DNA of 64,000 bases. Source: Marinobacter sp. MDS2. GTDB lineage: Bacteria > Pseudomonadota > Gammaproteobacteria > Pseudomonadales > Oleiphilaceae. The DNA lies in assembly GCF_030718085.1 (NCBI RefSeq), contig NZ_JAVAJF010000001.1, forward strand, positions 1,798,001 to 1,862,000. Direction: 5' to 3'. The notes beneath the pieces are model-generated. The model was not told where the DNA came from and made no database searches. It was given only the letters and a program-made list of their open reading frames with translations. Shown piece by piece: positions 8,164 through 22,607 of this stretch. Position 1 is the first letter of the stretch. Each line of letters opens with the position of its first letter. The position numbers were made by a program, and so were the translations under genes.

Positions 8164-8428
8164 CGGCTGTTTGTATCGCGGAAAAGGCAGCCCAGGCTGC
8201 CTCAAGAACCACCAGACCTGGTCAGCCGCACCGCAACGTTGCTGTGCGGCGCTCCAGTGCAGGCCTCGTGCTGTGAGCCGAAAAGCGTGACCCATTGATC
8301 CTTAATCAGCAGCAACGCCCCGCTGTCAGCACTATTCCCATTACTCGTGACGTAACTGCCCGCGTAGTTGAAATGAAACTTGCCACAGCTGCGTAGCGGT
8401 CAGGTGGAGTGTATCGTTCAGCACCCTG
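8164..8428. other. Non-coding stretch with an ORF remnant next to the integron's distal end
   Basis: No intact gene is visible. On the minus strand a frame open from 8399 to the stop at 8202 reads like a decayed protein C-terminus (it includes SGALLLIKDQWVTLFGS) but has no start codon. Two hairpins lie in it: 8186-8201 (arms GGCAGCC/GGCTGCC) and 8225-8250 (arms GCCGCAC/GTGCGGC). A weak, degenerate attC for the last cassette may occupy roughly 8349-8422, but I cannot define its boxes. Confidence 0.4.
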
Positions 8429-9091
8429 TCATGAGATAAGGGATAGAATTCTAGATAATAAAGACCTACGCAAATTTGCGCTTAATATCCAATCTGAAAT
8501 ATCAAAATACTGATATCGCTTGCGAAAGAGCGATAGACCATCCATTACATGCTCTCCCTCTGGATCCTTCAGATCGGGCAGAGAAAGATGGTTTGAGGCA
8601 CCGTATTCGTTAATTCCTAATGAAATCTTATTGCGAAAGGAAAGGGCATGAAATCTTTCTAGATGGCCTTGCTCGCATCCATCTCGATCACAGAACTTTA
8701 CGAAAAATGGCGTATTTGCATCCCTGGCGTCTTTTAATCGTGCAATTCTTCGATTCCATTTTCTGTAGGCCTCTTCCTGTGATTTGTAATGCAAGAAATG
8801 GATTTCTATGTCCCCACAAACGACTCCAACTGGATAACTTGGCGTCGCTGACATGTATTTTGAAACCGTTGAAAATTTAATCTCTGAATCGATACACGTT
8901 TCGAAATCTTCTAGAAACCGAACGTAGCATTCAGGAAAAAGGAAAAGGCCGACAAACGGAGTGTTGTATTGCCTGTCGAGGACATTGTATAGCTCATATC
9001 CCCAGCAATTATTTGAGATAATTACAAAGTGGTTATCATTCAAGCGAAATTTCTCGATTGCATGACCGAGTTTTTTTATTGCTGGCTGCAT
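8429..9091 (-). CDS. DUF1919-family protein (last integron cassette)
   Basis: A 220-residue protein with the DUF1919 signatures: FVIISNNCWGYELY near the N-terminus, NTPFVGLFLFPECY, then YPVGVVCGDIEIHFLHYKS. Members are often found in surface polysaccharide loci, but the activity is unproven. ATG 9091 is chosen because AGAGGAAAC precedes it; the frame extends to 9121, into the neighbouring attC. It is the cassette most distant from the integrase, and no clear attC follows its 3' end, so it may no longer be excisable. Confidence 0.75.
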   Translation of the reverse strand: MQPAIKKLGHAIEKFRLNDNHFVIISNNCWGYELYNVLDRQYNTPFVGLFLFPECYVRFLEDFETCIDSEIKFSTVSKYMSATPSYPVGVVCGDIEIHFLHYKSQEEAYRKWNRRIARLKDARDANTPFFVKFCDRDGCEQGHLERFHALSFRNKISLGINEYGASNHLSLPDLKDPEGEHVMDGLSLFRKRYQYFDISDWILSANLRRSLLSRILSLIS

Positions 9092-9105
9092 TTTGTTTCC
9101 TCTGA

Positions 9106-9184
9106 CTAACGCTGCTAGCATCAGCGGCGACCTTTTTTCAGCGAAGCGGAGACAAAGGCATCCGAGTGACGCGCCTGGTTAGCT
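9106..9184 (-). repeat. attC site of the Phd-ParE cassette
   Basis: Bounded by CTAACGC at the left and GGTTAGCT at the right, with internal near-palindromic arms around 9121-9170 (CAGCGGCGAC against a GTGACGCGCCTG side). The toxin stop codon TAA lies inside the right-hand core. Structure and position between two cassettes identify it. Confidence 0.8.
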
Positions 9185-9481
9185 GTTCTCAAGCATGTAC
9201 GCCCGAAGCTGTCGCTCCTCTGGCATGACATAGAGAATGAGAACTCGCTTATCATCCTCACGATAAAAAATGCGACACGGTGGAACCACTACCTCCCTGT
9301 ATACTGAATTAGGGAGTTCTGGAGGAATCCGTCCGGATTGGGGAGAATCTTCCAAACGCCCGGTCTTATCGAAAACTTCCTGGACCAGGTGACTTGCGGC
9401 TGCACGATTATCCAGAGCAATGTACTCAGCGATGGCATCCAGTTCTTGGAGGGCAGGCTCCGTCCAGATTACTTCAGCCAT
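9179..9481 (-). CDS. ParE/RelE-type toxin
   Basis: A 100-residue type II toxin of the ParE/RelE superfamily. Seen: the opening WTEPALQELDAIAEYIA, the helix hairpin, GRIPPEL, then YREVVVPPCRIFYR and VLILYVMPEERQL at the end. This could be a gyrase poison (ParE) or an mRNA interferase; the sequence favours the ParE side but does not decide it. It overlaps the antitoxin gene by 13 bases. The two genes form one integron cassette. Confidence 0.85.
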   Translation of the reverse strand: MAEVIWTEPALQELDAIAEYIALDNRAAASHLVQEVFDKTGRLEDSPQSGRIPPELPNSVYREVVVPPCRIFYREDDKRVLILYVMPEERQLRAYMLENS

Positions 9482-9726
9482 TTACTCATTTTCTCCCTGG
9501 CCTCACTCTGGCTGTACGTTCTTCCCTCAAGTACAGCACGCTCTCCCCGTGAGAGCCCCTCAAGCAGCTCAAGTCGACGTTGCATAAACTCATAATCTTG
9601 CACATCGACAAGGTATGCGGATGGTTTACCGTGCTCCGTGATCAGTATCGGCTCCTTAGACAAGCGCAAATCTGCAAGAATCTTTGTGGCTTGGCGCTTG
9701 AGATTCGTAACAAGCTCAACTTTCAT
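9469..9726 (-). CDS. Phd/YefM-type antitoxin
   Basis: An 85-residue antitoxin with an N-terminal Phd/YefM DNA-binding fold (LVTNLKRQATKILADLRLSKEPILITEHGKPSAYLVDV) and a C-terminal toxin-neutralising tail. It precedes and overlaps the ParE-like toxin gene. A TATAGT element about 40 bases upstream on the same strand may be its own promoter, so the cassette need not depend on an integron promoter. Confidence 0.85.
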   Translation of the reverse strand: MKVELVTNLKRQATKILADLRLSKEPILITEHGKPSAYLVDVQDYEFMQRRLELLEGLSRGERAVLEGRTYSQSEAREKMSKWLK

Positions 9727-9790
9727 GGGCTCACCCTGAATCAGACTAGTAGTGGCACTATAGTATCACTTTTCAGGTGGGGCAATCACA

Positions 9791-9847
9791 GCTAACGCTA
9801 AGCTAATGTGCGCCGCCTACGGGGTCACCATTGAGCGGCTTGTTAGC
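9791..9847 (-). repeat. attC site of the BrnTA cassette (short)
   Basis: A short site of about 57 bp, bounded by CTAACGC and TGTTAGC. It overlaps the 3' end of the BrnA-like gene, which supplies the last 15 or so codons inside the site. Arms such as GCTAACGCTAAGC and GAGCGGCTTGTTAGC pair imperfectly. Confidence 0.72.
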
Positions 9848-10072
9848 AGATTCTGCTTGTAGACGCTCAACCAGCCACACCTTGATGATTGATTGGCGGG
9901 TAACGCCGATACGCGCAGCCTCACGATCCAATGACTCTACGACCCAAGCAGGAAAGTCCACGTTAATTCGCTTTTGCTCCAGATTGGTACGACGGGCCGT
10001 GGATAGATCAAGGTCATCGATGATATCTTCCTGACCTCCATCGAATTTTTTATCGAAGTCTTTAGCTTTCAT
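9803..10072 (-). CDS. brnA: BrnA-like antitoxin
   Basis: An 89-residue antitoxin with a C-terminal ribbon-helix-helix (KRINVDFPAWVVESLDREAARIGVTRQSIIKVWLVERL). Family knowledge: BrnA binds both the operator and the BrnT toxin. AGGAGG lies nine bases before ATG 10072, which I prefer over a TTG nine bases upstream. It follows the toxin gene with an 11-base overlap, the normal brnT-brnA order. Its tail runs into the attC site. Confidence 0.85.
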   Translation of the reverse strand: MKAKDFDKKFDGGQEDIIDDLDLSTARRTNLEQKRINVDFPAWVVESLDREAARIGVTRQSIIKVWLVERLQAESANKPLNGDPVGGAH

Positions 10073-10325
10073 AGAGCTCAACCTCCTTCTTGCGGGAACG
10101 CCTGACTGAAATCAGCCGAATACGACTTTCCCTATACGTGACGACAGCCGACCAATGCTTTTCGCCAATTCTGCCTATCAGCACGAACCTTGGCTCACCT
10201 TCTGATTTTGCCCGTATTTCCAGCAGATACGGGTCTTTCCATAGCTCTTGAGCAGACGCGAAATCCATACCATGCTTATCAAGGTTGGCCTGACTTTTAG
10301 CTTCGTCGAATTCAAACTCATCCAT
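10062..10325 (-). CDS. brnT: BrnT-family toxin
   Basis: An 87-residue RelE-fold ribonuclease toxin. The family motifs are FEFDEAKSQANLDKHGMDF at the N-terminus, the central RFVLIGRIGEKHWSAVVTYR and the terminal RLISVRRSRKKEVELYE. Members degrade RNA and stop growth until BrnA neutralises them. It is the first gene of its cassette, and AAGGAA lies 12 bases upstream of the ATG. Confidence 0.88.
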   Translation of the reverse strand: MDEFEFDEAKSQANLDKHGMDFASAQELWKDPYLLEIRAKSEGEPRFVLIGRIGEKHWSAVVTYRESRIRLISVRRSRKKEVELYES

Positions 10326-10383
10326 GAGTATAAATTATTCCTTTTTTACTCAGCTCGCAAGATTTAAAAGGTGTGGTGCAACT

Positions 10384-10460
10384 GTTAACGCCCGGCTCAC
10401 GCGCCGGTTTGGAGCCGCGAAGAGGCGGAAAATCCGTCTCTGTGCAGCCGCTGGTTATGC
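10384..10460 (-). repeat. attC site of the HigBA cassette
   Basis: Bounded by GTTAACGC and TGGTTATGC. The inner arms include CGGTTTGGAGCCGCGAAGAGGCGG, closely similar to the attC sites at 11128 and 14946. The antitoxin stop lies in its right end. Confidence 0.82.
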
Positions 10461-10769
10461 CCTGTGTCCGATTTCGGATACAGCAGTCCACGGACGAATA
10501 TTCTTCAACTGATCCTCTAGGGCATCTTCGGCAATCTCAGTGTCGTAGGCTGCCTGAGCTCGCAACCAGTAGCCGTTAGACAAACCAAAAAAGCGACAGA
10601 GCCGCAGGTCCGTGTCGGCGGTAATCGAACGTTTTCCCGCAATGATCTGGCCTATTCTCTGGGCAGGCACCCCGATTTCTTTGGCCAGGCGGTACTGAGA
10701 AATGCCCATCGGCTCCAGAAAATCTTCTTTGAGCAACTCGCCTGGTGTAACAGCGTCAATGTTGCGCAT
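10455..10769 (-). CDS. higA: HigA-family antitoxin
   Basis: A 104-residue antitoxin with the HigA XRE-type helix-turn-helix: TPGELLKEDFLEPMGISQYRLAKEIGVPAQRIGQII, then TADTDLRLCRFFGLSNGYWLR. ATG 10769 has AGGAGG six bases upstream; the frame extends upstream to 10889 but that part is antisense to nothing useful. It follows the HigB gene by 10 bases, toxin first, as is normal for higBA. Confidence 0.88.
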   Translation of the reverse strand: MRNIDAVTPGELLKEDFLEPMGISQYRLAKEIGVPAQRIGQIIAGKRSITADTDLRLCRFFGLSNGYWLRAQAAYDTEIAEDALEDQLKNIRPWTAVSEIGHRA

Positions 10770-10779
10770 GAGCCACCTC

Positions 10780-11058
10780 CTAATGGTAATCAACAATTTC
10801 GACATCTTCCGCGCCAGCCTTGGTCCAGCGGAAGCAAACCCGGAACTGATTGTTGATTCGAATGCTGTGCTGACCTTGCCGGTCACCATGCAATGGCTCC
10901 AACATATTTCCGGGCGGTACTCTCAAATCATCCAACTGGCTTGCAGCTTGGAGTTGCCGAATTTTCCTCAAGGCAACTCGCTCAAAGTTGACGAAGCGCC
11001 TGACACGGCGTCCGCTTGCCAGTTTCTCGGTATCCTTACACTTGAACGATATGATCAT
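10780..11058 (-). CDS. higB: HigB-family RelE-like toxin
   Basis: A 92-residue mRNA interferase of the HigB/RelE superfamily. The diagnostic stretch is PGNMLEPLHGDRQGQHSIRINNQFRVCFRW, followed by EIVDYH at the C-terminus. HigB cleaves mRNA on the ribosome. There is no obvious ribosome binding site upstream of the ATG, so the start is less sure than the family. Confidence 0.88.
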   Translation of the reverse strand: MIISFKCKDTEKLASGRRVRRFVNFERVALRKIRQLQAASQLDDLRVPPGNMLEPLHGDRQGQHSIRINNQFRVCFRWTKAGAEDVEIVDYH

Positions 11059-11127
11059 GATTCAATGATGACGGGGCGCGTTATTAACGTCAAGCGTTAT
11101 GATCTGACGGATGGATCTGGAGAAAGG

Positions 11128-11204
11128 CATAACGCGAAGCTTTGCGGCAATTTTGCAGCCGCAAAGCGGTGGAAAAATTGTCCGGCAACAGCGGCTGGTT
11201 ATGC
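11128..11204 (-). repeat. attC site of the YefM-YoeB cassette
   Basis: Bounded by CATAACGC and TGGTTATGC, with arms GCGAAGCTTTGCGGC and GCCGCAAAGCGG. It resembles the sites at 10384 and 14946, so these three belong to one attC subtype. Confidence 0.83.
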
Positions 11205-11205
11205 A

Positions 11206-11469
11206 TTATTCGTAGTGGCTCCAGAGCCTGAGAACTTTCACCACTCGCTCGTCATAGAGCACTTGGTAGACCAGACGACGCTGAATATTGATGCGGCGTG
11301 AATAAGCCCCCGCAAGATCACCAATGAGCTTCTCAAATGGAGGCGGCTTGCGGTATGGGTCTTCCGCTATCAGCGCTAACAGTTCCTGGGCTTTTGGCTT
11401 GAGGCCGCTGGAGGCCAACTTCTTTGCATCTTTCTGGGCTTGCGTTGTATAGACCAACTTCCATGTCAC
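11206..11469 (-). CDS. yoeB: YoeB/Txe-family toxin
   Basis: An 87-residue ribosome-dependent mRNA interferase. Family motifs: WKLVYTTQAQKDAKKL, NPYR-like DPYRKPPPFEKLIGDLAGAYSRRIN and RLVYQVLYDERVVKVLRLWSHYE, with the terminal His-Tyr used in catalysis. It overlaps the antitoxin stop by four bases (ATGA), which couples translation. Confidence 0.9.
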   Translation of the reverse strand: MTWKLVYTTQAQKDAKKLASSGLKPKAQELLALIAEDPYRKPPPFEKLIGDLAGAYSRRINIQRRLVYQVLYDERVVKVLRLWSHYE

Positions 11470-11708
11470 CAGTCCAGCTCCTCATCGCATTCATCCACGG
11501 GGGTATCCATCCCCTCACGAATAGACTCCCGCATGCCCGGTACGGACAATAGGTACAGTGTTTCCTGAATTGCAGACCAATCTTCTTCGGACACCAAGAC
11601 GGCTCTGTTTCGTTTACCCATGATGATGATTGGCTGGTGGGACTCAGCAGTTTCGTCGATCAACCGATAAAGGTTGCTGCGCGCCTCAGTTGCTGTGATT
11701 CCGGTCAT
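11466..11708 (-). CDS. yefM: YefM-family antitoxin
   Basis: An 80-residue antitoxin of the YefM/Phd family. It opens with TATEARSNLYRLIDETAESHQPIIIMGKRNRAVLVSEEDW, the DNA-binding half, and ends with an acidic tail EGMDTPVDECDEELDW that wraps the toxin. AGAGGTG precedes the ATG. A strong promoter with a palindromic operator lies just upstream. Confidence 0.9.
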   Translation of the reverse strand: MTGITATEARSNLYRLIDETAESHQPIIIMGKRNRAVLVSEEDWSAIQETLYLLSVPGMRESIREGMDTPVDECDEELDW

Positions 11709-11740
11709 GACGCACCTCTTGCGTGTTTAACTTTTGACCA

Positions 11741-11768
11741 ATTGTACGCCTTTGCGTACGTGCGTCAA
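11741..11768 (-). promoter_or_regulatory. Promoter and operator of the YefM-YoeB cassette
   Basis: On the minus strand, a -35 TTGACG (11763-11768) and a -10 TACAAT (11741-11746) are separated by 16 bases. The perfect palindrome GTACGC-CTTT-GCGTAC at 11744-11759 fills the spacer and overlaps the -10, as expected for an autoregulatory YefM operator containing the core GTAC. Confidence 0.75.
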
Positions 11769-11781
11769 GACGAACGCCCTG

Positions 11782-11863
11782 CATAACGCCGCTAGCATGC
11801 GCGGCTTTGTAGTGGAGGCGAAGCCGCAACGAAAAGACGTCGCCGTGACTGGCCTGGTTATGT
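11782..11863 (-). repeat. attC site of the molybdenum-carrier-like cassette
   Basis: Bounded by CATAACGC and GGTTATGT. It shares AGCATGCGCGGCT and TGGAGGCGAAGCCGCAA with the site at 12339, so the two form a second attC subtype. Confidence 0.83.
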
Positions 11864-12322
11864 TGATTGCTGTATCACCCGGCCGATCGCCTGCTTCACA
11901 TAGCGGTATATTCCAGGACAACTGCTTGATCTAGGGCCTGCAACATTCAATACACTTACGTTAAATTCCCGGACAAACCCGCTAAGAACTTCTGCTGCGC
12001 GCGATGATTCAACCAGCTCAATATCAATAAGCTTGTACGGTTTGCCTTGCCGAATGCAAAAGAGAACGGTTGCTTCCGTTCCCCCATGAAGATACGACTC
12101 GTAAAAAATAGCCGTGCCGTCTGAATCGATAACATTTTGCTTCGTTCGCTGGCGATAACCACCGCCGATTTCAGTCAACGTGTATGTGTCATTGATCGGC
12201 CCATCTTCAGCCATACGCCCAACAGGGCAGCTTCCTCCAATTGGAAAGCCCGACTCAAGAGCCGCATCTAACGCCGCCCGGTCAGCACCGGTTTGTCCAC
12301 CACTTATGACCTTTGAGAGCAC
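11858..12322 (-). CDS. Putative molybdenum carrier-family protein
   Basis: A 154-residue protein with a Rossmann-like fold of the molybdenum-carrier/YpsA-like group (PF12694). Signatures: VISGGQTGADRAALDAALESGFPIGGSCPVGRMAEDG and RTKQNVIDSDGTAIFYESYLHGGTE. Related proteins bind molybdate-like cofactors or nucleotides, but function is not established. The start is a GTG at 12322 with GGGGTAGG upstream. It is a single-gene integron cassette. Confidence 0.8.
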   Translation of the reverse strand: MLSKVISGGQTGADRAALDAALESGFPIGGSCPVGRMAEDGPINDTYTLTEIGGGYRQRTKQNVIDSDGTAIFYESYLHGGTEATVLFCIRQGKPYKLIDIELVESSRAAEVLSGFVREFNVSVLNVAGPRSSSCPGIYRYVKQAIGRVIQQST

Positions 12323-12338
12323 GACCTACCCCAATCAA

Positions 12339-12421
12339 CATAACGCCAGCCAGCATGCGCGGCTACGGAATGGAGGCGAAGCCGCAATGTAGTAGGCGTC
12401 GCGTGCCTGGCCTTGTTATGG
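12339..12421 (-). repeat. attC site of the Ada-type zinc-protein cassette
   Basis: Bounded by CATAACGC and TTGTTATGG; arms CATGCGCGGCTACG and GGCGAAGCCGCAATG. Very similar to the site at 11782. Confidence 0.82.
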
Positions 12422-12425
12422 GTTC

Positions 12426-12716
12426 TTACTTGGGCAACTGTTTCCAAGGATAGTCCTCCTTCCCCTCTGGCCCAGATTTCCATTCTTTATAACGCGATAC
12501 CATGCACCGCCCGCACGGCCTGTAGCCAGCGTGAATGGCATCTTGTTCATTCGCAAAGAAGACACGATGTTCTGCATAGCCTTTAGAGAGCGCTCCTTTG
12601 GCCGCAGAGCAATCCAATCGACCGTAAATTCGCGCTTTGGAGTTGCCACCCAGAGAGCCAGGCGTTTTGCTGATGACGGTAGTTCCGTCTGCGGACAATA
12701 ATTTATAGGTCTTCAC
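12426..12716 (-). CDS. Stand-alone Ada-type metal-binding domain protein
   Basis: A 96-residue protein built on the Ada zinc-binding fold. It shows RIYGRLDCSAAKGALSKGY, then HRVFFANEQDAIHAGYRPCGRCM, giving three Cys at the family's positions. In Ada this domain takes methyl groups from DNA phosphotriesters using one Cys; stand-alone versions are common and their role is unclear. I chose the GTG at 12716, six bases after AAGGGAG; an ATG at 12734 lies inside the attC core. It is a single-gene cassette. Confidence 0.75.
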   Translation of the reverse strand: MKTYKLLSADGTTVISKTPGSLGGNSKARIYGRLDCSAAKGALSKGYAEHRVFFANEQDAIHAGYRPCGRCMVSRYKEWKSGPEGKEDYPWKQLPK

Positions 12717-12731
12717 TGATACTCCCTTACC

Positions 12732-12836
12732 CATAACGCTTTTGTTCAGCGGCAGCCTTGGCGCAGCGAAGCGGAGACAAGGCTGTCCGGTGGAGGGCCT
12801 TCAGGCCCGGAACGTACTGGAACTATTGGTTAGGCA
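12732..12836 (-). repeat. attC site of the coiled-coil cassette (longest)
   Basis: About 105 bp, bounded by CATAACGC and TGGTTAGGC. It contains GGCGCAGCGAAGCGGAGACAAGG and the sub-hairpin GGGCCTTCAGGCCC. The right half resembles the attC sites at 13553, 14023 and 14510. Confidence 0.82.
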
Positions 12837-12839
12837 TGA

Positions 12840-13520
12840 TTACTGCCGGGCGCGATTACAGACGAAAGTAACCAAATCGGCCTTGCTTGAACCTGACACA
12901 AGCTCAGCCCACTGGACATTGTCGTACATTTTGATATTTGATTGGCTGCCATCACCATATCCTAAGTCCTGATAGCGCCTCTTGTCGCAGTCAATTCGAG
13001 TCACAGAATATCCATGACTAGCTGAGCTCACCCTACTATGCACCGTCCGCAGATACTCCCCATCAGATTCAGTAGTGATGAGATAATAGCTGGCCTTTTC
13101 GGACATGCTTCTTGGGATTAATTCTCCTTCTGGAGCGGACTGAGAGGATGATTGTTTTGTAACCTCGCCCGTATAGCTCGACGAATTATACCTTTCCGCC
13201 GAATTTTCCATTTTAAATGATGCGAATATAAAGAAACCAATTACTGACAACCCAGCAGTGATACCAACAAACCTGGCAAAAAGCTTATTTTTAAGTTTTA
13301 ACTCTTTTTTCTTTATCAACTTTTCACGCTCTTTCAGCGACTTCTCCAATGCTTTGAGCTCTGCCTCTTTTTTATATACCCAATCCTCCATTTTTTTTCG
13401 CCGTTTCTCATCGCGTTCAGCTTTGAGGTGTGCCGCTTTATCAACGAATTCTTCTGTCTTTTTACCAGCGCTCTCAATATAGCTAGCTGCTTTGCCCTTC
13501 CAGCCATCAATTCTGCTCAT
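12840..13520 (-). CDS. Unknown coiled-coil membrane protein (cassette)
   Basis: I do not recognise this 226-residue protein. Residues about 15-80 are very rich in Lys and Glu with heptad spacing and should form a long coiled coil. A single membrane segment follows (FVGITAGLSVIGFFIFASF, about 84-102). The remaining 125 residues form a soluble domain with two Cys (RIDCDKRRY and FVCNRARQ at the end). GGAGGGG precedes the ATG. The topology suggests a bitopic protein with the coiled coil in the cytoplasm. It has no partner gene in its cassette. Confidence 0.7.
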   Translation of the reverse strand: MSRIDGWKGKAASYIESAGKKTEEFVDKAAHLKAERDEKRRKKMEDWVYKKEAELKALEKSLKEREKLIKKKELKLKNKLFARFVGITAGLSVIGFFIFASFKMENSAERYNSSSYTGEVTKQSSSQSAPEGELIPRSMSEKASYYLITTESDGEYLRTVHSRVSSASHGYSVTRIDCDKRRYQDLGYGDGSQSNIKMYDNVQWAELVSGSSKADLVTFVCNRARQ

Positions 13521-13552
13521 TTTATTCGGCCCCTCCGGGCTTAAATATTATT

Positions 13553-13638
13553 GCTAACGCCAGAATTAAGGGGCGCCCGAATAGGGCGTCCGGTGGACGG
13601 CCGCTAGGCCGGGAACGAACTTGAATGATTGGTTAGGC
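13553..13638 (-). repeat. attC site of the exported-protein cassette
   Basis: Bounded by GCTAACGC and TGGTTAGGC. The core GGCGCCCGAATAGGGCGTCCGGTGGACGG recurs almost unchanged in the sites at 14023 and 14510, which defines a third subtype. Confidence 0.86.
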
Positions 13639-13643
13639 ATTTT

Positions 13644-14018
13644 TCAGTCTCCCGCTCCGCACGGAGCTGCCGGTAATTTGCCTGCCAGAGTTCGCTGCCA
13701 TGCAGTGGCAACCTCTTGGGAACTGAATGCTCCATGTAAGTCCCCATTAGACATTGGCCCCATTATCGTCGCCCTCAAGAACTCCTGATCACCGACAACA
13801 AGGCGGCTCATTCTGCCAATGTTTGCTTCAGTGAACCTCTCAAAACTAGTGGCCCCAACTTTTGTCAGCTTTACGTGAACCGGCCATTCATTCTCGATCT
13901 GTGTACCTACTGCCGATTGCTGCACGTAAGCCGAACACAAGTGAAAATCTAGCTCAGTCTCTGCTAATACAGCACCGGGGGTAACCAGCAAAAGGGTTGC
14001 GACCCATTTCATCATCAC
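13644..14018 (-). CDS. Small exported protein with a SecD P1-head-like domain (cassette)
   Basis: A 124-residue protein with a clear signal peptide (KWVATLLLVTPGAVLAE). The mature part contains VKLTKVGATSFERFTEANIGRMSRLVVGDQEF and then GAFSSQEVATAWQRTLAGKL, which resembles the SecD/DUF P1 head subdomain pattern (a 'leT..nvG..l.i..dg' motif and a 'f...eA..la..l' helix). That similarity is by eye and moderate. Two Cys (positions about 28 and 120) could form a disulfide. Several ATG codons at the start are possible. Function unknown. Confidence 0.68.
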   Translation of the reverse strand: MMMKWVATLLLVTPGAVLAETELDFHLCSAYVQQSAVGTQIENEWPVHVKLTKVGATSFERFTEANIGRMSRLVVGDQEFLRATIMGPMSNGDLHGAFSSQEVATAWQRTLAGKLPAAPCGAGD

Positions 14019-14022
14019 GATT

Positions 14023-14502
<480 letters not shown>

Positions 14503-14509
14503 CTAGCAA

Positions 14510-14593
14510 CATAACGCCTGCATAAACGGCGCCCGACTAGGGCGTCCGGTGGAGGCCCATCGGGCCGGAACGAATTTAATGCACTGGTTATGT
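14510..14593 (-). repeat. attC site of the YnfA cassette
   Basis: Bounded by CATAACGC and TGGTTATGT, with the shared arm GGCGCCCGACTAGGGCGTCC and the sub-hairpin GGCCCATCGGGCC. Confidence 0.87.
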
Positions 14594-14920
14594 GGTGCGC
14601 GGCGCAAACATGATGATTGCCATACCTACCAGCGCAACGGCTGAGCCTACCAAGTCCCAAGCAGTTGGACGGATGCCATCTACTGCCCACAGCCAAAGTA
14701 TTGCCATGAAAATATAAACGCCACCGTAAGCAGCATAGACCCTACCAGCGGCTGTCGGATGCAATGAAAGCAGCCAGGCGAATGCTGCAAGACTCAATGC
14801 ACCAGGCACCAAAAGCCAAATAGTTTTGCCCTCGCGAAGCCAGAGGTAAGGCAGATAACAGCCGACAATTTCTGCAAATGCGGTAACGAGGAAAAGGCCA
14901 ATTGTTTTCAACTCAGGCAA
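14588..14920 (-). CDS. ynfA: YnfA/UPF0060-family membrane protein (cassette)
   Basis: A 110-residue protein with four predicted membrane helices. Family motifs: [21 protein letters not shown] at the start, [20 protein letters not shown], then [17 protein letters not shown]. YnfA proteins resemble SMR transporters, and efflux activity has been suggested for some. The start is probably the TTG at 14920, nine bases after AAGGAG. Single-gene cassette. Confidence 0.88.
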
Positions 14921-14945
14921 AACAACCTACTCCTTGGCAGTAACA

Positions 14946-15016
14946 CATAACGCCGCGCTCTGCGGCAATTTTGGAGCGCAGCGGAAAAATTGTCCGCCAG
15001 CAGCGCCTGGTTATAC
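14946..15016 (-). repeat. attC site of the membrane-protein cassette at 15011
   Basis: Bounded by CATAACGC and TGGTTATAC; arms GCGCTCTGCGGCAATTTT and AAAAATTGTCCGCCAGCAGCGC pair well, as in the sites at 11128 and 10384. Confidence 0.86.
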
Positions 15017-15730
15017 GAATGTGGCCGAATAAAATCCAGTTAGCAGTGCACCAAAGATCGTAAATCCTGATCCAATATGGATGATGTATCTAGATACACG
15101 AAACTTCAAAATCGCTGACCAAATATCGAGCATACATTCATAAGCCATGTACTCGTCTGAAGGTGAGAGGCCTGATTCTTCATTTTTCTCTTCTTTTTTC
15201 TTTCTTCCGAACACGGTGTGAGCAGAGCTTCGAAACCGGAATAATGGCCAGAAATTAGCGAACAATGGCAGGTCGAAGTAGTCTTCCATTACTGTAGGAA
15301 GATGAATTCGAATAACATGCGTTCCAACATCCAACGGAACTTCTGGATTGCTTAGCGTGAGCTGGTGCAAATCCCCATTTAAAAGACGCCTCTTAGCGGC
15401 TCGGGGGAGAAACGGCCACCTTCTCCACGGACTCTCTTGTTCCAGAATGTCTCTATAAAGAATGTCAACATTTAGGCGGACTCGTTCATGTAGGTCTGTC
15501 TGCCAAATCAAACCGATGGCTCCAATTGCGGAACCAAACGTCGCTAGAATTGCTCCCGATGACAGCAGGGTAACCAAGGTGGCTTGGCTTTCAGGTCGAG
15601 ATAGAATCTCATACGCAATAGCGCCTCCGACGAAATAGACAAGGGTGATAATAAGATAATGCAGCCTCAAGTGGTGATGGGTGCTTTCCTTTGCAGGCCG
15701 CTTTTGATTGTCTTCTTTTTCATCACTCAC
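15011..15730 (-). CDS. Unknown multi-pass membrane protein (cassette)
   Basis: I do not recognise this 239-residue protein. Three hydrophobic segments are visible: LIITLVYFVGGAIAYEIL (about 26-43), LVTLLSSGAILATFGSAIGAIGLIW (about 52-76) and a C-terminal IIHIGSGFTIFGALLTGFY (about 216-234). A cytoplasmic region of about 130 residues between the second and third includes a Lys/Glu-rich loop (FGRKKKEEKNEES). The start is a GTG at 15730. A, T-rich codon use differs from the flanking core genes. Confidence 0.7.
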   Translation of the reverse strand: MSDEKEDNQKRPAKESTHHHLRLHYLIITLVYFVGGAIAYEILSRPESQATLVTLLSSGAILATFGSAIGAIGLIWQTDLHERVRLNVDILYRDILEQESPWRRWPFLPRAAKRRLLNGDLHQLTLSNPEVPLDVGTHVIRIHLPTVMEDYFDLPLFANFWPLFRFRSSAHTVFGRKKKEEKNEESGLSPSDEYMAYECMLDIWSAILKFRVSRYIIHIGSGFTIFGALLTGFYSATFV

Positions 15731-15756
15731 GTTTCACCACTGACCTCTTTAATTAG

Positions 15757-15828
15757 TATAACGCCCTGAATAAGCCGACAATTTGGAGCGGCCGCGGAAA
15801 ATTGGTCGGCTTGATTCAATTGTTAGCT
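15757..15828 (-). repeat. attC site of the TIR-protein cassette
   Basis: Bounded by TATAACGCC and TTGTTAGCT; arms AAGCCGACAATTTGGAGC and GGAAAATTGGTCGGCTT pair almost perfectly. Confidence 0.86.
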
Positions 15829-16725
15829 GTGTTCGATATCGTATCCCGCATTTCTCAACTCAGCATCTAATTCACTTCGCCAATTTCCCGCGGCATCCAT
15901 GGTTATGTAGACAACACCACTTATATCATTAGGCGTTTCAACGGTTCCTTTCACTAAAGCAGCTACACGTGATCTTGATAATTTTGCAATGAGATAACCA
16001 TGCTCAAAAACAACATTTTGACGGGCTCTCCATTTATAGCCGAGGCTGTCGCGCTTTGCGCCAACGTCACACTCTGTATAAAGGACTATGCCAAAACCTA
16101 CGTTGCTATAATGGTCAATCTTTTCAATAATCGTTCTACCACCACTAGCTTGCAAGTGAAGGATTATCGGCTCAAGCCCTTTAGATTCAACGTAAGATTT
16201 GACATCGTTTTTCGCATGCTCATCATGACCATGAACAATAAACACCTGATCTCTATTAAATTGCGCGCCCTCTTCAGCTGGCTTATTCTCTGGAAGATCT
16301 TGCGTTGGCACGTCTTTATTAGCATTGGTTATATTGTTTTCTTTAAGAACTCTCTGGAGATCAATATTTTTTATAGCCCAATGTGTCCGAAAGAATTCAT
16401 ACTCTTCAATACCTAACTCGAGTGCGACCCTTTCTATATTTTCAGTAGAAATAACTCCGATACTTTCGTCACGCTCAAAGATTACGCGGTAATCTCTACC
16501 CGAAGCAGTGATGTTCGTGATGTTGCCAACGAATGCGCCCCCCTCGCAGTGTTCGTGCATAAATAGGCACGGATATGACTTAATTTCCCGCACTACATCC
16601 GGACCGAGATTGCGATACCGCATTTGAGTTTCTGAATCAGTGTACTCAAGGAAGCGGGAGGCAGAGACCGTCACTTCGTTCTCAGTTTCTTCTGGGCCAA
16701 TGTAACCCATGAATAAGTTATACAT
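15823..16725 (-). CDS. TIR-domain (CAP12/Pycsar-type) putative defence effector
   Basis: A 300-residue protein. Residues about 160-298 match the bacterial TIR-like family PF10137: VFIVHGHDEHAKNDVKSYVE, the GRTIIEKID loop, NVGFGIVLYTECDVG, RARQNVVFEHGYLIAKLSRSRV with the likely catalytic Glu at 241, and SGVVYITMD. Family members include NAD-degrading effectors of cyclic-nucleotide anti-phage systems. Residues 1-130 form a separate domain I do not recognise, with a conserved-looking FMHEHCEGGAFVGNI stretch; residues 131-158 look like a linker. GGGAAAG precedes the ATG. It is alone in its cassette, with no cyclase beside it, so the N-terminal domain is presumably its sensor. NADase activity is inferred. 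Confidence 0.85.
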   Translation of the reverse strand: MYNLFMGYIGPEETENEVTVSASRFLEYTDSETQMRYRNLGPDVVREIKSYPCLFMHEHCEGGAFVGNITNITASGRDYRVIFERDESIGVISTENIERVALELGIEEYEFFRTHWAIKNIDLQRVLKENNITNANKDVPTQDLPENKPAEEGAQFNRDQVFIVHGHDEHAKNDVKSYVESKGLEPIILHLQASGGRTIIEKIDHYSNVGFGIVLYTECDVGAKRDSLGYKWRARQNVVFEHGYLIAKLSRSRVAALVKGTVETPNDISGVVYITMDAAGNWRSELDAELRNAGYDIEHS

Positions 16726-16742
16726 TTCTTTCCCTATTTACA

Positions 16743-16813
16743 GCTAACGCTGTGGCTTTGCGGCGTACCGGAGCGCCAGCGCAGGTGCGTCCGACAACAG
16801 CCAATTGTTATAT
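16743..16813 (-). repeat. attC site of the first cassette
   Basis: Bounded by GCTAACGC and TTGTTATAT, with arms GGCGTACCGGAGCGCC and GCGCAGGTGCGTCC inside. It separates the first two cassettes after the integrase. Confidence 0.82.
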
Positions 16814-17281
16814 TTTTTCATAGTGTCTCGTAACCTCTTGCTGCGCCACTTTTTGAAACAGAGATATTTTTTCTCGGGCATCCGCCACCATTGTGTCAAG
16901 CAAGCCGGTCTCTTGTTGATTTTTGCTCAAACAAATAAACGACTGGACAGAATACATCGCTTCGTAGGCTTTCAGCCGAATTGTGTCGTCGGAGATTATC
17001 TGCAATTCATTAAAAGCACGGAGGTACTGGTTGTAGTCATCGGAAGCAGGAGAGCAGCTGCTATAGAGATAGGTTTGAATAAGCTTTTGTGACAAAGATA
17101 GGAAATCTACATATTTCGACTTCTTTTCCTCTTGAAGAGCATAGAAAAATCTCCGTTGCTCTTGGTCGTTTTCATGCTCCTGCTTTTTGACCAACACAAA
17201 GTAACCAAAAACGCTCGATATGGCGGCTCCGAGACCAATCTTTACAGCCGTATCCACAACACCAATCCAGGTCAAATCCAC
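16808..17281 (-). CDS. Unknown membrane-anchored protein (first cassette)
   Basis: I do not recognise this 157-residue protein. One membrane segment lies near the N-terminus (AVKIGLGAAISSVFGYFVLV, about 12-31), followed by a basic-acidic stretch and a helical, probably coiled-coil cytoplasmic domain. The start is a GTG at 17281, seven bases after TTGGAG. It is the cassette next to the integrase, so it is likely the most recently acquired before the integrase died. The layout, one helix then a helical domain, resembles proteins in several phage-defence loci, but that is only an impression. Confidence 0.7.
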   Translation of the reverse strand: MDLTWIGVVDTAVKIGLGAAISSVFGYFVLVKKQEHENDQEQRRFFYALQEEKKSKYVDFLSLSQKLIQTYLYSSCSPASDDYNQYLRAFNELQIISDDTIRLKAYEAMYSVQSFICLSKNQQETGLLDTMVADAREKISLFQKVAQQEVTRHYEKI

Positions 17282-17295: not shown

Positions 17296-17400
17296 CTCGG
17301 TCAAAATATAACAGCAATTGGATCGATGTCTCAGTGATTGCGAAAAATTGACTGCTTCGTTATCACGGATTTTTCGAACCCCAGTACACCGATCAAAAAC
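17296..17400 (-). other. Probable attI region
   Basis: This stretch lies between the intI promoter and the first cassette. A core-like GTTATAT reads on the minus strand at 17306-17312, just before the first cassette gene, and is identical to the core at 16807-16813. I cannot define the other attI boxes or the cassette promoter by eye. Confidence 0.4.
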
Positions 17401-17450
17401 ACGTAAAACAAAAGCTTAGCTCAGTTTTTAGAAGCCTACTACGTAATCAT

Positions 17451-17497
17451 TTGACTTCTGTGATCTGCGCCACCAATAATACTGTTCAAATATACAG
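17451..17497 (+). promoter_or_regulatory. intI promoter with a perfect LexA box
   Basis: A -35 TTGACT (17451-17456), an 18-base spacer and a -10 AATAAT (17475-17480) precede a LexA site CTGT-N8-ACAG at 17482-17497. The site covers the predicted transcription start, 26 bases before the intI ATG, as in SOS-regulated integrons. Confidence 0.82.
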
Positions 17498-17523: not shown

Positions 17524-18296
17524 ATGCAAGGAAAGCAACCTCGCCTTCGCGATCAGGTTCGCGCGGTGATTCGCGTTAATCATTACAGCATTCGTACCGA
17601 TAAAACCTATTGGTATTGGATTCGCTATTTCATTCGTTTCCACCAAATGAAACACCCACGAGATATGGGCCCGCCGGAGGTTAATGAGTTTTTGACCTGG
17701 CTTGCCGTACATCGCAATGTTGCGGCAGCCACGCAGGCACAGGCGCTGAACTCTTTGGTGTTTTTGTACGACAAGGTATTCGGGACTCCACTCGGCGAGA
17801 TTGGAGAGGTAGTCCGGGCAAAGAAGCCTCGTAAGTTGCCCGTGGTGCTCACGCACGATGAAGCGATGCGCATCATCAACCATCTCAGTGAACCTAATAA
17901 GCTGATAGCATCCCTCATGTATGGCTCGGGTTTGCGGGTAACCGAGGCCTGTCGTCTGCGCATCAAGGATCTAGATTTTCAACAGCAGGTAATCACCGTG
18001 CGCGACGGAAAAGGCGCCAAGGATAGAACCACCTTATTGCCTGCCACGCTTATAGAGCCACTGCAGAGCCATGTTGAGAACATCCGCAAAGCCTGGCAGC
18101 AGCGTAGTGAGGAGTTTCTGCACCCTGTCAGTATGCCCTTGCCTTCCGCCACACCTTCGCCACTGAACTCCTAAAACGTGGCAACGATATTCGCACCGTG
18201 CAGGACCTCCTCGGCCACGCCGACCTGCGAACCACCCAAATCTATACCCATGTTCTTGGGCAAGGTTTTGCGGGGGTTCGCAGTCCGTTGGGATGA
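17524..18296 (+). pseudogene. intI: Integron integrase intI, inactivated by deletion and frameshift
   Basis: The first frame (17524-18174) begins like an integron tyrosine recombinase: RVNHYSIRTDKTYWYWIRYFIRF, then box I SLMYGSGLRVTEACRLRIKDLDF with its Arg, and the GKGAKDRTTLLP Lys region. After about residue 203 the frame is lost. The C-terminal part continues in the +2 frame from about 18132 to TGA 18296: [37 protein letters not shown], with the catalytic Tyr intact. The combined length is about 257 codons against about 320 in the family, so roughly 55-65 residues are missing, including the IntI-specific insertion and the start of box II; the HxxR His position reads Leu. The GGAGG ribosome site before the ATG remains. 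Confidence 0.88.
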
Positions 18297-18320: not shown

Positions 18321-19379
18321 TCACCACTCCAACTGCGCCCCAGTCTGGTACTCAATTACCCGCGTTTCAAAGAAGTTCTTTTCTTTGCGCATGGTGGCTT
18401 GCTCATCCAGCCAGGGCGAGACGTTTTTCGCGCCCGGGAACGGGTCTTCCAGCCCTACGGTGCGAGCGCGGCGGTTGGCCACAAAGCGGAATTGTTCGGT
18501 GTGGTATTCCGCGGAGTAGCCCAGTATCGGGTCGCGCAGAATATAGTTGGCGTAGTCGCGCTCGGCGGCTTCGGATTCTTCCCACATCTCGCGCACGGCC
18601 TTCGGGTCCAGGCTGATGTTTTCTTCTTCCAGTATCTGGTTCACCACTTTCAGGCCGAAGGCGAAGTGCATGGCTTCATCGCGCAGGATGTACTGGAACT
18701 GCTCACCGGTGCCGCGCATCAGGCCGCGGCGTTGCAGGGCGAAGATGGGGCTGAAGCCGTTGTAGAACCAGCAGCCTTCAAACACCGCCGCAAAGAACAG
18801 GTACGACATGATGAATTCTTGCAGGTCGTCTTTGTTGCGCAGGTTGATGTCGGGGCGCATGGCGGCGTCCAGCCGGCGGTTGGCCATCTGGATTTTAGCG
18901 TTGATTTGCGGCACCACGCGGTAGCGATTGTAGATTTCGCTCTGGTCCAGGTTCAGGGTTTCAATGCAGTGCTGGTAGGTCCAGGTGTGCAAGGCCTCTT
19001 CGTACACTTGGCGCGCCTGGTAGATTTGCAGCTCCGGCGCGGTCATTTTTTCCATCACCGCCAGGCCGATGTTGCGCATGGCCAGTATGTCGGAGGTGGT
19101 CAAGTAAGCCACCACGTTTTCGAACACGTGCTTTTCCGCCGGGTTCAGGCGGTGGTGGTAGTCGTGAACGTCTTGCGCCATGTTCACGTCCAGCGGGGTC
19201 CAGTGGTTTTTGTTGGCGTTCATGAAGAACTCCCAAGCCCACGGGTACTTGAACGGCGCCAGCTGGTTTACGTCGGTTTCGCCGTTGATCACGCGTTTGT
19301 CGTCTACGTTCACCGGGGCCACGCTGCTGTCTGCAGCGGGCTGGCTTTTTGGTTTGGTTTCGTCGTCCCAATTCAACAT
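18321..19379 (-). CDS. nrdB: Class Ia ribonucleotide reductase, beta (R2) subunit
   Basis: A 352-residue R2 subunit that carries the di-iron centre and tyrosyl radical. YEEALHTWTYQHCIETL shows Glu, His (+3) and the radical Tyr (+7) with the same spacing as E. coli E115/H118/Y122. AVFEGCWFYNGF and DEAMHFAFGLKVV supply further ligands. The C-terminal tail binds R1. ATG 19379 is chosen because GAGAGG lies eight bases upstream; the frame runs further, to 19469, into nrdA. It follows nrdA by 28 bases in one operon. Confidence 0.95.
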   Translation of the reverse strand: MLNWDDETKPKSQPAADSSVAPVNVDDKRVINGETDVNQLAPFKYPWAWEFFMNANKNHWTPLDVNMAQDVHDYHHRLNPAEKHVFENVVAYLTTSDILAMRNIGLAVMEKMTAPELQIYQARQVYEEALHTWTYQHCIETLNLDQSEIYNRYRVVPQINAKIQMANRRLDAAMRPDINLRNKDDLQEFIMSYLFFAAVFEGCWFYNGFSPIFALQRRGLMRGTGEQFQYILRDEAMHFAFGLKVVNQILEEENISLDPKAVREMWEESEAAERDYANYILRDPILGYSAEYHTEQFRFVANRRARTVGLEDPFPGAKNVSPWLDEQATMRKEKNFFETRVIEYQTGAQLEW

Positions 19380-19407: not shown

Positions 19408-22176
19408 TTACTGACAGGCTTCGCAGTCGGGTTCGTCGATACTGCACACTTGTGGCTGCGGCGCGGCAACCGGGGCGGCTTGCTCGTTCACGCCGGTGGC
19501 GCCGAGTGAGCGCAGGTAGTAGGTGGTTTTCAAGCCACGTTCCCACGCCAGCTGGTACAACTCGTCCAGTTTTTTACCGCTGGGTTCGGCCATGTACAGG
19601 TTCAGGCTCTGGGCCTGATCCAGCCATTTCTGACGGCGAGAGGCGGCTTCTACCAACCAACGGGCGTCGATCTCAAACGCGGTGGCGTAGCGGGATTTCA
19701 GTTCGGTGGGTATACGGTCAATTTGCTGCACGCTGCCGTCGTAGTATTTGAGGTCGTTCACCATCACGTTGTCCCACAGGCCGACCGCCTTGAGGTCACG
19801 CACCAGCGAGGGGTTCACCACGGTGAATTCGCCAGAGAGGTTCGATTTCACGAACAGGTTTTGATACGCCGGCTCGATGGATTGCGACACGCCCACGATG
19901 TTGGAAATGGTGGCGGTGGGTGCAATGGCCATGACGTTGCTGTTGCGCATGCCGTGCTGGGCGATGAGTTCGCGTACCGGCGCCCAGTCCAAGCGGCTGT
20001 CGGTATTCACGTTGATGTCGTCTTCGCGGCGGGCGTTTTTCAGCAGTTCGATGGAGTCGATGGGTAGAATGCCCTGGCTCCACAAGGAACCTTCGTAGCT
20101 TTCATAAGCGCCCCGCTCCGCCGCCAGCTGGGCGGAGGCGCGAATCGCGAAGTAGCTCAGCTGCTCCATGGCCACGTCGGCGAATTCCACCGCTTGCGGG
20201 CTGGTGTACGGCAGGCCCAGTGCGTAGAGCGCATCTTGGAAGCCCATCAGGCCAAGGCCGACCGGGCGGTGCTTCAGGTTGGAATTGCGTGCTTGGGGTA
20301 CGGCGTAGAAGTTGATGTCGATAACGTTATCGAGCATGCGCACGGCGGTGTTTACGGTGCGCTCCAGGCGCTGCACATCCAGCTCGCCATTGGCGATGTG
20401 AGCCGCCAGATTCACCGAGCCCAGGTTGCACACGGCAATCTCATCGGCGCTGGTGTTCAGGGTGATTTCGGTACACAGGTTGGAGCTGTGGACTACGCCC
20501 TTGTGCTGCTGCGGCGAGCGCAAGTTGCAGGGGTCTTTGAAAGTGATCCACGGGTGGCCGGTTTCAAACAGTACGGTCAGCATTTTGCGCCACAGCTGTT
20601 TGGCCGGGATGGTTTTGAACAGCTCGATTTTGCCTTCCGCGGCCAGTGCTTCGTAATGCTCGTAGCGCTCGCGGAATTCGTTTCCGTACAGGTCGTGCAA
20701 ATCGGGCACGTCGCTGGGGCTGAACAGAGTCCAGTCGCGGTCTTGGCGCATGCGTTCAATCAGCAAGTCCGGCACCCAGTTGGCGGTGTTCATGTCGTGG
20801 GTACGGCGGCGTTCGTCACCGGTGTTTTTACGCAGTTCCAGAAACTCTTCGATGTCCAGGTGCCAGCTTTCAAGATAGGCACACACCGCGCCTTTGCGCT
20901 TGCCGCCCTGGTTTACGGCGACGGCGGTGTCGTTCACCACTTTCAGGAACGGCACCACGCCCTGGCTTTGGCCGTTGGTGCCTTTGATGCGGGAGCCCAA
21001 TGCGCGCACGGGTGTCCAGTCGTTACCCAAACCGCCAGCCCATTTCGAGAGCATGGCGTTGTCGCGAATCGCGCCGTAGATGTCTTCCAGATCGTCGCCC
21101 ACGGTGGTGAGGTAGCAGGACGAAAGCTGGGAATGGCGAGTTCCGCTGTTAAACAGCGTGGGCGTGGAGGCCATGTAGTCGAACGACGACAAAAGATTGT
21201 AGAACTCGATGGCGCGGCTGTTGGGGTCGTCTTCACGCAGCGCCAAACCCATGGCCACACGCATGAAGAATACCTGTGGTAGTTCCAGGCGGTCTTCTTT
21301 CCAGTGCAGGAAGTAACGGTCGTACAGGGTTTGCAGGCCGAGGAAACCAAACTGTTGGTCGCGCTCGGGCTTGATCGCCGCGCCCAGCTGTTCCAGGTCA
21401 AACGCGGCCATGGCTTCGTCCAGCAGTTCGTAACGAATGCCGGCGTGAATAAAGGCGCTCAGGGCCTGTGGATAAACCTCCGCAAGGCTCAGGCTGGTGT
21501 CGAGATTCAGAGCGGTCACGCTTTCAAGGCGCAGTTGTTCCAGCAGCAAACGGGCAGTCACGGCGCTGTAGTCGGGCTCACGCTCGATACGGCCACGAGC
21601 GGTCATAATCAGGGCGCTCAGTACCTCGGCTTCGTCGATTCCGTTGTAGAGGTTGCGGATGGCCTCTTCCACCAACGAATCGCCTTCAATGCCTTCCAGC
21701 CCTTGAGAAGCCTGCTCGACTTGGCGTTTCATCAGGCCTAAGTCCAAGGGTACGGTACGGCCACTGGCTTGTTTTACGGTGAGATGAGGGTGCGCTTCTA
21801 CGGGTTCGTGCTGGGCGCGCTCACGGGCGTGTTCTTCACGGTAGAGTACGTAGGCGCGGGCCACTTTTTGTTCTTCGGCGCGCATCAGGGCCAGTTCTAC
21901 CTGATCCTGGATGTCTTCAATGTGTACCCGGCCACCGGCTTTCAGGCGGCGACTGATGGCCTGCACAACCTGTTCGGTTACGCGGTGGACGGCATCGTTA
22001 ATTCGGGCAGATCCGGCGGCTTGATCGCCTTCAACCGCCAGGAAGGCTTTGGTAACGGCTACGCTGATTTTAGACGGGGTAAAACTGACCAGATTGCCGT
22101 TGCGCTTGATAACCTGCAGGGCTTCTGTGTCGGACGGTGAGGTGGGCCGCGGTTCGGCCAGGGCTGTAGCAGACAT
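19408..22176 (-). CDS. nrdA: Class Ia ribonucleotide reductase, alpha (R1) subunit
   Basis: A 922-residue R1 subunit that reduces ribonucleoside diphosphates to deoxy forms. An N-terminal ATP cone (VIKRNGNLVSFTPSKISVAVTKAF) is followed by a second cone-like region (TVKQASGRTVPLDLGLMKRQ), then the barrel with FNSGTRHSQLSSCYL, the active-site SNLCTEITLN and AVCNLGSVNLAAH, and a C-terminal tail with cysteines in CSIDEPDCEACQ. ATG 22176 has AGGAG eight bases upstream. A cobalamin riboswitch lies in its long leader, so expression probably falls when B12 is plentiful. Confidence 0.95.
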   Translation of the reverse strand: MSATALAEPRPTSPSDTEALQVIKRNGNLVSFTPSKISVAVTKAFLAVEGDQAAGSARINDAVHRVTEQVVQAISRRLKAGGRVHIEDIQDQVELALMRAEEQKVARAYVLYREEHARERAQHEPVEAHPHLTVKQASGRTVPLDLGLMKRQVEQASQGLEGIEGDSLVEEAIRNLYNGIDEAEVLSALIMTARGRIEREPDYSAVTARLLLEQLRLESVTALNLDTSLSLAEVYPQALSAFIHAGIRYELLDEAMAAFDLEQLGAAIKPERDQQFGFLGLQTLYDRYFLHWKEDRLELPQVFFMRVAMGLALREDDPNSRAIEFYNLLSSFDYMASTPTLFNSGTRHSQLSSCYLTTVGDDLEDIYGAIRDNAMLSKWAGGLGNDWTPVRALGSRIKGTNGQSQGVVPFLKVVNDTAVAVNQGGKRKGAVCAYLESWHLDIEEFLELRKNTGDERRRTHDMNTANWVPDLLIERMRQDRDWTLFSPSDVPDLHDLYGNEFRERYEHYEALAAEGKIELFKTIPAKQLWRKMLTVLFETGHPWITFKDPCNLRSPQQHKGVVHSSNLCTEITLNTSADEIAVCNLGSVNLAAHIANGELDVQRLERTVNTAVRMLDNVIDINFYAVPQARNSNLKHRPVGLGLMGFQDALYALGLPYTSPQAVEFADVAMEQLSYFAIRASAQLAAERGAYESYEGSLWSQGILPIDSIELLKNARREDDINVNTDSRLDWAPVRELIAQHGMRNSNVMAIAPTATISNIVGVSQSIEPAYQNLFVKSNLSGEFTVVNPSLVRDLKAVGLWDNVMVNDLKYYDGSVQQIDRIPTELKSRYATAFEIDARWLVEAASRRQKWLDQAQSLNLYMAEPSGKKLDELYQLAWERGLKTTYYLRSLGATGVNEQAAPVAAPQPQVCSIDEPDCEACQ

Positions 22177-22362
22177 ACCGTTATCTCCTGAATACGCGTG
22201 GGTTCTATAACCTTCGCGTACGCAGGACGAACAAAGCATCAACCCGAGCGGGCTGTCGCTGTGCCATGTTCGTTGCTGCTCACCTTAGGGTGCCAAAATG
22301 CAGGCGCCTGAGTCGCGAAGGTGCAGTCGAGCTGTTTTCTTCGTGGCGATAGAAAACAACAC

Positions 22363-22572
22363 GTCTCTGGCAGGTCTTCGGACTCAGGGGCGTGAACCTT
22401 GTGGTTCGGCCTTGTGTGGCGACTTCCCGGCGGTTGCCAGTGTCGTTATGCCACGCTCGTTCCCCAATACCGCTGCGCGTCAGTTCCGGATTCTCACCGG
22501 ATTCCCGGCTACCTTTTGATCGAAGTGTTTGAAATTCGCTCAAAACACAACATCTGGTAGCTAGCCAGAGAC
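22363..22572 (-). promoter_or_regulatory. Cobalamin (B12) riboswitch in the nrdAB leader
   Basis: Read on the minus strand, the leader contains the class hallmarks in order: GGGAATCCGGTGAGAATCC, then CTGACGCGCAGCGG, then CACTGG, GGGAAGTCGCC, and GAGTCCGAAGACCTGCC. Closing stem P1 is visible: GTCTCTGGC at the 5' end (plus 22564-22572) pairs with GCCAGAGAC at the 3' end (plus 22363-22371). A stem with GTTTTCT/AGAAAAC arms (22334-22357) follows and may be part of the switch's expression platform. Confidence 0.92.
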
Positions 22573-22578
22573 ACCACA

Positions 22579-22607
22579 ACTATATACACGAACTCATAGA
22601 GAAACAA
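22579..22607 (-). promoter_or_regulatory. Probable sigma70 promoter of nrdAB
   Basis: On the minus strand, -35 TTGTTT (22602-22607) and -10 TATAGT (22579-22584) are 17 bases apart and lie immediately upstream of the riboswitch. Confidence 0.65.

Follow-up and report, generated by a model that had tools for sequence, protein, structure and literature searches.

A probable integrase pseudogene beside nrdB in Marinobacter sp. MDS2 and the chromosomal integron array that it leaves in place

Chromosomal integrons often carry a damaged integrase gene. In the available part of the survey by Nemergut et al. (2008, PMC2426708), intI pseudogenes with a stop, a frameshift, or an indel make up nearly one third of the intI genes, and the accessible text of Cambray et al. 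(2011, PMC3108266) gives inactivated genes as 43% of 1,135 homologs and reports that loss of LexA control correlates with integrase inactivation. Work on Acinetobacter baylyi carrying class 1 integrons (PMC3510236) showed that an active integrase is costly and that it is rapidly lost by frameshift. The excerpt of PMC12444791 describes frozen integrons of Xanthomonas, and for Marinobacter sp. LQ44, PMC10295459 likewise lists attC sites without a working integrase. Among the papers searched, none joined an integron integrase pseudogene with Marinobacter.

The locus described here, from Marinobacter sp. MDS2, resembles the pseudogenes of the first two surveys, as far as their available text goes, in that intI is inactivated by an indel with a frameshift. 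Damage of this kind is common and well known, and the present locus is a young and well-delimited case of it. Unlike the cases behind the reported correlation (PMC3108266, in its accessible text), the pseudogene keeps its LexA box. The locus shares with the Xanthomonas integrons a fixed site, a deleted or truncated integrase, and arrays that are present and were dynamic before the loss; by the same excerpt (PMC12444791), inactivation in Xanthomonas is often old and common to lineages, whereas the lesion in MDS2 appears young and is found in one genome. It is also like a CALIN in having attC sites without a working integrase, and the same genome holds three such islands. Although no working integrase is present, an integrase pseudogene adjoins the array, where a CALIN has no integrase gene nearby, and the putative attI leader, a promoter-like site, and most of intI are retained alongside.

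The window, meaning the whole stretch of 64,000 nucleotides that was analyzed, belongs to an assembly of 3,449,993 bases in 10 contigs (completeness 100%, contamination 0.31%), and the lesion lies inside a 2.3-Mb contig. By IntI, the nearest named relatives are Marinobacter S6332, DY40_1A1, sediminicola, and 3-1899-Z, with 93–95% identity over 213 residues. The intI region of the window contains the following features.

17451..17480, plus strand: sigma-70-like promoter of intI, TTGACT-18-AATAAT
17482..17497, plus strand: LexA-box-like CTGT-N8-ACAG ahead of intI, kept in five of six aligned relatives
17524..18174, plus strand: 5' piece of intI, an open frame of 216 aa, of which about 206 are native and cover the N-terminal SAM-like domain and box I, the rest being a short out-of-frame tail
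18138..18142, plus strand: deletion junction, 187 bp net loss versus intact relatives, placed by alignment and length comparison
18144..18296, plus strand: 3' piece of intI, carrying the codons of the second Arg, GHAD His, and Tyr in a shifted frame; placed by profile match and alignment
18321..19379, minus strand: nrdB, the chromosomal anchor

The nrdB gene directly adjoins intI in the window and in the four closest relatives, versus a spacing of about 1.1 kb in HyVt-357 and 1-4A. The locus thus has a fixed chromosomal place common to related species, and its array of 13 attC sites (minus strand) points away from intI (plus strand). We read it as a Marinobacter integron of the sedentary chromosomal type. 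On the far side of nrdB, a cobalamin riboswitch (Rfam RF00174, 78.5 bits) was found at 22352–22579 on the minus strand, the same strand as a large ribonucleotide reductase-like gene (19408–22242) and just upstream of it.

From ATG to stop, intI measures 773 bp (17524–18296) versus 960 bp in the intact closest relatives. The alignment to intact genes of related genomes that the earlier note on this stretch had proposed was made at the DNA level with six relatives, and it gave one clean gap, a single block of 187 missing columns near 18138–18142. The 5' frame closes at TAA 18172–18174, and the 3' piece codes for 50 residues identical to residues 270–319 of P0002, the integrase of an intact relative (319 aa). 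TIGR02249, the integron integrase profile, matches in two frames, at 17551–18141 (profile positions 3–198 or 3–199) and at 18141–18296 (positions 263–312 or 263–314); the 5' piece scores 232.1 bits and the 3' piece 85.4 bits, so that the curated cut-off of 265 is reached in neither frame. In P0002 numbering, residues from about 207 to 269 (about 63) are gone and the remainder is out of frame, which agrees with the earlier estimate of some 55–65 internal residues lost before a frameshift.

The deleted part includes the ALARKYPG segment of P0002. In an alignment with IntI4 (PDB ID: 2A3V) this segment falls in the insertion region, and we take it to be the IntI-specific insertion; the loss of this element had been claimed before, and the alignment bears it out. 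The HxxR His (H268 of P0002, in the HTFRH motif) also falls inside the deletion. Box I (GSGLRVTE) is kept with its Arg, and the codons of the second Arg, GHAD His, and Tyr now lie in another frame, so that the catalytic residues of a tyrosine recombinase are not found together in a single frame. We assume here the catalytic roles of the box I Arg, HxxR His, second Arg, GHAD His, and Tyr nucleophile. The earlier statement that the catalytic Tyr and box I survive therefore holds for box I, which stays in frame; the Tyr and the second Arg survive as DNA only, because the in-frame product stops before both. Judged from its sequence, the window gene is a pseudogene of the IntI family and not a working member, and the two-frame profile match, the 187-bp gap, and the 216-aa product uphold the view that it is dead.

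The age of the lesion was estimated from private steps of the window gene in codons 1–204 and 270–319, compared with four relatives agreeing among themselves. There were 23 synonymous steps and four nonsynonymous ones, which replace three residues; an unconstrained gene would be expected to show about 76 of the latter. Background omega was 0.053–0.063 in three intact pairs and 0.017–0.032 in two more distant pairs. The unconstrained share of the window branch is near zero, with an upper bound of 6.5–9.4%; this figure comes from simple counting and may be distorted by recombination between lineages. When 151 bases round the junction were used as the query, the junction was found in none of the other 123 Marinobacter genomes; 40 of the 123 matched the query partly, with the two sides split or with one side, and the longest partial match (positions 45–151 of 151, 86%, in G143) lies within an intact gene. 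The substitution pattern and the confinement of the junction to one genome support the earlier proposal of a recent deletion, and the deletion looks young relative to the split from the sister species.

A sliding comparison over about 5 kb was used to consider the 3' piece, in which synonymous differences are numerous, as a recombined tract that imported the deletion; this was rejected, as its divergence of 8–10% is near the local background. The unusual part of intI is the middle, 17600–18000, which diverges from DY40 by 1–3% in a neighborhood that is mostly higher. This suggests, at the sequence level, that intI segments may have been exchanged between lineages before the deletion.

The control region is retained. 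The LexA-box-like pattern occurs twice in the window versus 0.72 expected, a count that alone is not significant, and promoter-like sites occur three times in 1.2 kb versus 1.1 expected. Neither element is clearly above chance by number, so the argument lies in their place and conservation (five of six aligned relatives). The promoter had been described as intact, in keeping with the promoter-like site at 17451–17480. The window case is one of inactivation without loss of the LexA box, for which the correlation in the accessible text of PMC3108266 does not account. In strain S6332, intI is intact, with an ISL3-family transposase gene (L039, 11–1240) some 130 bp upstream of it and a LexA box that is cut; the contig ends within the ISL3 element. 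To judge from its position, this insertion is a different route by which the same integron may be disabled or deregulated.

The array was searched with a covariance model of attC (R2) built from 26 sites of nine loci (L041–L045, L047–L049, L051), none of them from the window; the source was 30 attC sites found in 12 scanned loci. The RNAalifold structure was poor in pairs (five), and outer pairing was added by hand to give the 11-pair model used for searching. Over both strands of the 64 kb, R2 found 13 attC sites, all on the minus strand at 9105–16812 (E 8.4e-13 to 0.022), and no further site in the window at E ≤ 1. A model made only from the sites of other genomes thus returned the number of recognizable sites, 13, that had been counted earlier. 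From the attI side outward, the array reads as follows.

17309..17450, strand not assigned: putative attI-containing leader, conserved in L040–L044; similarity to the relatives' arrays stops here
16808..17281, minus: cassette gene, 157 aa
16743..16812, minus: attC, E 4.1e-7
15823..16725, minus: cassette gene, CAP12/Pycsar-type TIR domain; PADLOC candidate PDC-S35, E 2.5e-76
15757..15827, minus: attC, E 0.0011
15011..15730, minus: cassette gene, 239 aa
14946..15015, minus: attC, E 1.6e-10
14588..14920, minus: cassette gene, YnfA family
14510..14592, minus: attC, E 1.1e-11
14104..14490, minus: cassette gene, glyoxalase superfamily
14024..14108, minus: attC, E 8.4e-13
13644..14018, minus: cassette gene, weak SecDF P1-head match
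13553..13637, minus: attC, E 2e-10
12840..13520, minus: cassette gene, 226 aa
12732..12834, minus: attC, E 3.1e-9
12426..12734, minus: cassette gene, Ada-type metal-binding domain
12339..12420, minus: attC, E 7.8e-11
11858..12322, minus: cassette gene, circularly permuted YpsA (SLOG)
11782..11862, minus: attC, E 1.9e-9
11206..11708, minus: toxin–antitoxin cassette, Phd/YefM antitoxin and YoeB/ParE-like toxin
11128..11203, minus: attC, E 2.6e-7
10455..11058, minus: toxin–antitoxin cassette, HigB-like toxin and HTH antitoxin
10384..10459, minus: attC, weakest of the 13, E 0.022
9803..10325, minus: toxin–antitoxin cassette, BrnT and BrnA
9791..9847, minus: attC, short, E 0.00016
9179..9726, minus: toxin–antitoxin cassette, ParE-like toxin and Phd/YefM antitoxin
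9105..9183, minus: attC, most distal found, E 1.2e-5
8429..9121, minus: the array's last gene, DUF1919, no attC match behind
8223..8390, minus: remnant of a cassette gene, 56 residues, 37 of 56 identical to a longer copy at L088 3144–3632

The conserved leader ends at the place expected for attI, where the crossover point would lie. The four toxin–antitoxin cassettes are all in the far half of the array. At the distal end, the DUF1919 gene without an attC and the adjoining remnant (8223–8390) indicate that the array has lost its end; the description of a full array is therefore right for the 13 sites and cassettes in place and wrong for the eroded distal end. The TIR-domain cassette near attI is a defense candidate in a single-gene cassette. 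A Pfam scan of 18 array proteins revealed no drug-resistance gene, and "Glyoxalase/Bleomycin resistance" was rejected as one because it is a superfamily name only.

In four relatives (L041–L044), the attI-proximal 1.8–5.2 kb have attC sites in common with the window, whereas a match as long as a cassette occurs just once (550 bp, 96.7%, in strain 1-4A); L039 and L040, which hold no array there, were left out of this comparison. Since attI-proximal cassettes mostly differ between sister species, the array was turned over before freezing. Single cassettes recur across the genus, as scored at the best two candidate places per genome.

In the rest of the genome, attC sites lie in three islands without an integrase.

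L087, 2673–5816: four attC sites
L088, 2237–4511: three attC sites
L089, 2441–2522: one attC site

These counts come from searching the islands singly, and two of the eight sites are weak (E 0.017 and 0.027); a search of the own genome at E ≤ 1 gave 17 sites, 10 in the window array and seven elsewhere. Orphaned attC sites in the genome would thus number about 21 (13 in the array and eight in the islands). L088 holds a second YnfA cassette that differs from the window's at 36 of 327 bases (89% identical).

A search for a second intI, which the earlier note had advised, found none in the assembly, as none of the nine TIGR02249 matches (E ≤ 0.001) exceeds the 265-bit cut-off. Two are the pieces of intI, and four more come from a 322-aa and a 305-aa protein, each matched in two pieces; these proteins, the nearest two candidates, are XerC and XerD by curated cut-offs (364 versus 335 and 367 versus 330 bits). 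A 103-aa protein (L007) was rejected as an integrase; it covers only the first 86 of 315 profile positions, in the N-terminal domain, and stays below the cut-off. The two remaining matches, one of which is a 423-aa protein, are weak (E 2.3e-5 and 5.7e-5). Since the same search gives below-cut-off matches in all 14 control genomes, low scores carry little weight.

Here, we propose that the locus is very probably a sedentary chromosomal integron beside nrdB whose intI lost its function through a single internal deletion of 187 bp that also shifted the frame. This event would have cut IntI to 216 aa. Without IntI, site-specific capture, excision, and movement of cassettes should cease, and the cassette order would then be fixed, save for homologous recombination, deletion, or an IntI from outside. 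Drift, or the cost of keeping an active integrase, probably led to fixation of the lesion. The cassette genes, including the four toxin–antitoxin pairs, may keep a value of their own and resist loss.

The lesion itself could be read in two other ways. An intact gene from which the assembler dropped 187 bases would look the same, and the junction is indeed present in one assembly only. This artefact is nevertheless very unlikely: the longest word common to the breakpoint neighborhoods of the deleted stretch, compared in four intact relatives, is 7 bases, too short for repeat collapse and giving no indication of a long-repeat event or of the usual kind of assembly collapse; the site is internal to a long contig of a complete genome with little contamination, and the alignment shows the gap as one clean block. 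Alternatively, the short protein might serve, as a truncated integrase-like DNA-binding protein, in regulation or as a modulator of another recombinase. The promoter-like site and LexA box are intact and the kept codons are constrained; IntI-like proteins shortened in frame occur elsewhere, P0070 with 242 aa (18 member sequences) and P0073 with 260 aa, and nine 281-aa entries are listed among the best 120 of 7737 matches. The out-of-frame 3' piece is, however, equally constrained, a pattern that speaks more for a young lesion than for a new function, and none of 14 other proteins aligned with P0002 and the window's product, 13 of them shortened, ends like the latter; a functional short form is hardly to be expected. 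As a separate observation, P0070 (on 15 contigs) is without the insertion region and keeps its Tyr end, and P0073, P0097, and similar entries also have in-frame internal deletions.

The deletion of intI being preferred, its consequence for the array can still be questioned, as an integrase supplied in trans by another strain, a plasmid, or a phage might go on moving the attC cassettes. The window attC sites are well conserved, integrase-less arrays can be mobilized by a functional IntI according to the excerpt of PMC12444791, and an intact IntI-like gene occurs, among the matches listed, in 78 of 124 genomes of the genus. On the other hand, no other gene of the assembly reaches the IntI cut-off, and the one genome available gives no sign of movement after the loss; continued movement of this kind is rather unlikely. 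The earlier proposal that the array is frozen unless another integrase acts on it is consistent with that search, and we expect it to apply.

A broader reading may be offered tentatively. The Marinobacter integron might be switched off repeatedly by different fresh lesions despite kept LexA control, so that the cassette pools of species would switch between open and frozen states, and toxin–antitoxin cassettes and outside integrases would keep the frozen ones usable. The kinds of lesion at hand are the deletion in the window, the ISL3-type insertion cutting the S6332 LexA box, and deletions or stops elsewhere. As a single case, the window leaves the general view unchanged; it offers a datable integrase loss in an environmental genus with intact sister species, and this makes the idea of integrase cost testable outside clinical integrons.

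Across the 124 genus genomes, the P0002 query gave, among the matches listed, an intact gene in the 78 mentioned above (over 300 residues without a stop, identity of 40% or higher), broken pieces alone in 21, including the genome of the window, and no entry for 25; the figure of 21 is approximate, since it depends on the matches listed and some pieces lie at contig ends (e.g., G141). Among the listed matches of at least 70% identity, 28 genomes have an intact intI and 12 have pieces only. A fall of attC number with integrase loss is suggestive only: in Mann–Whitney tests that ignore kinship, p was 0.029 for intact versus broken, 0.00014 for intact versus none, and 0.12 for broken versus none. 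For the 112 genomes (of 124) with a completeness of 90% or more, counted with stricter filters and with up to 33 sites per genome, the median attC number was 22.5 with an intact gene (74 genomes), 15 with broken pieces only (21), and 8 with none listed (17).
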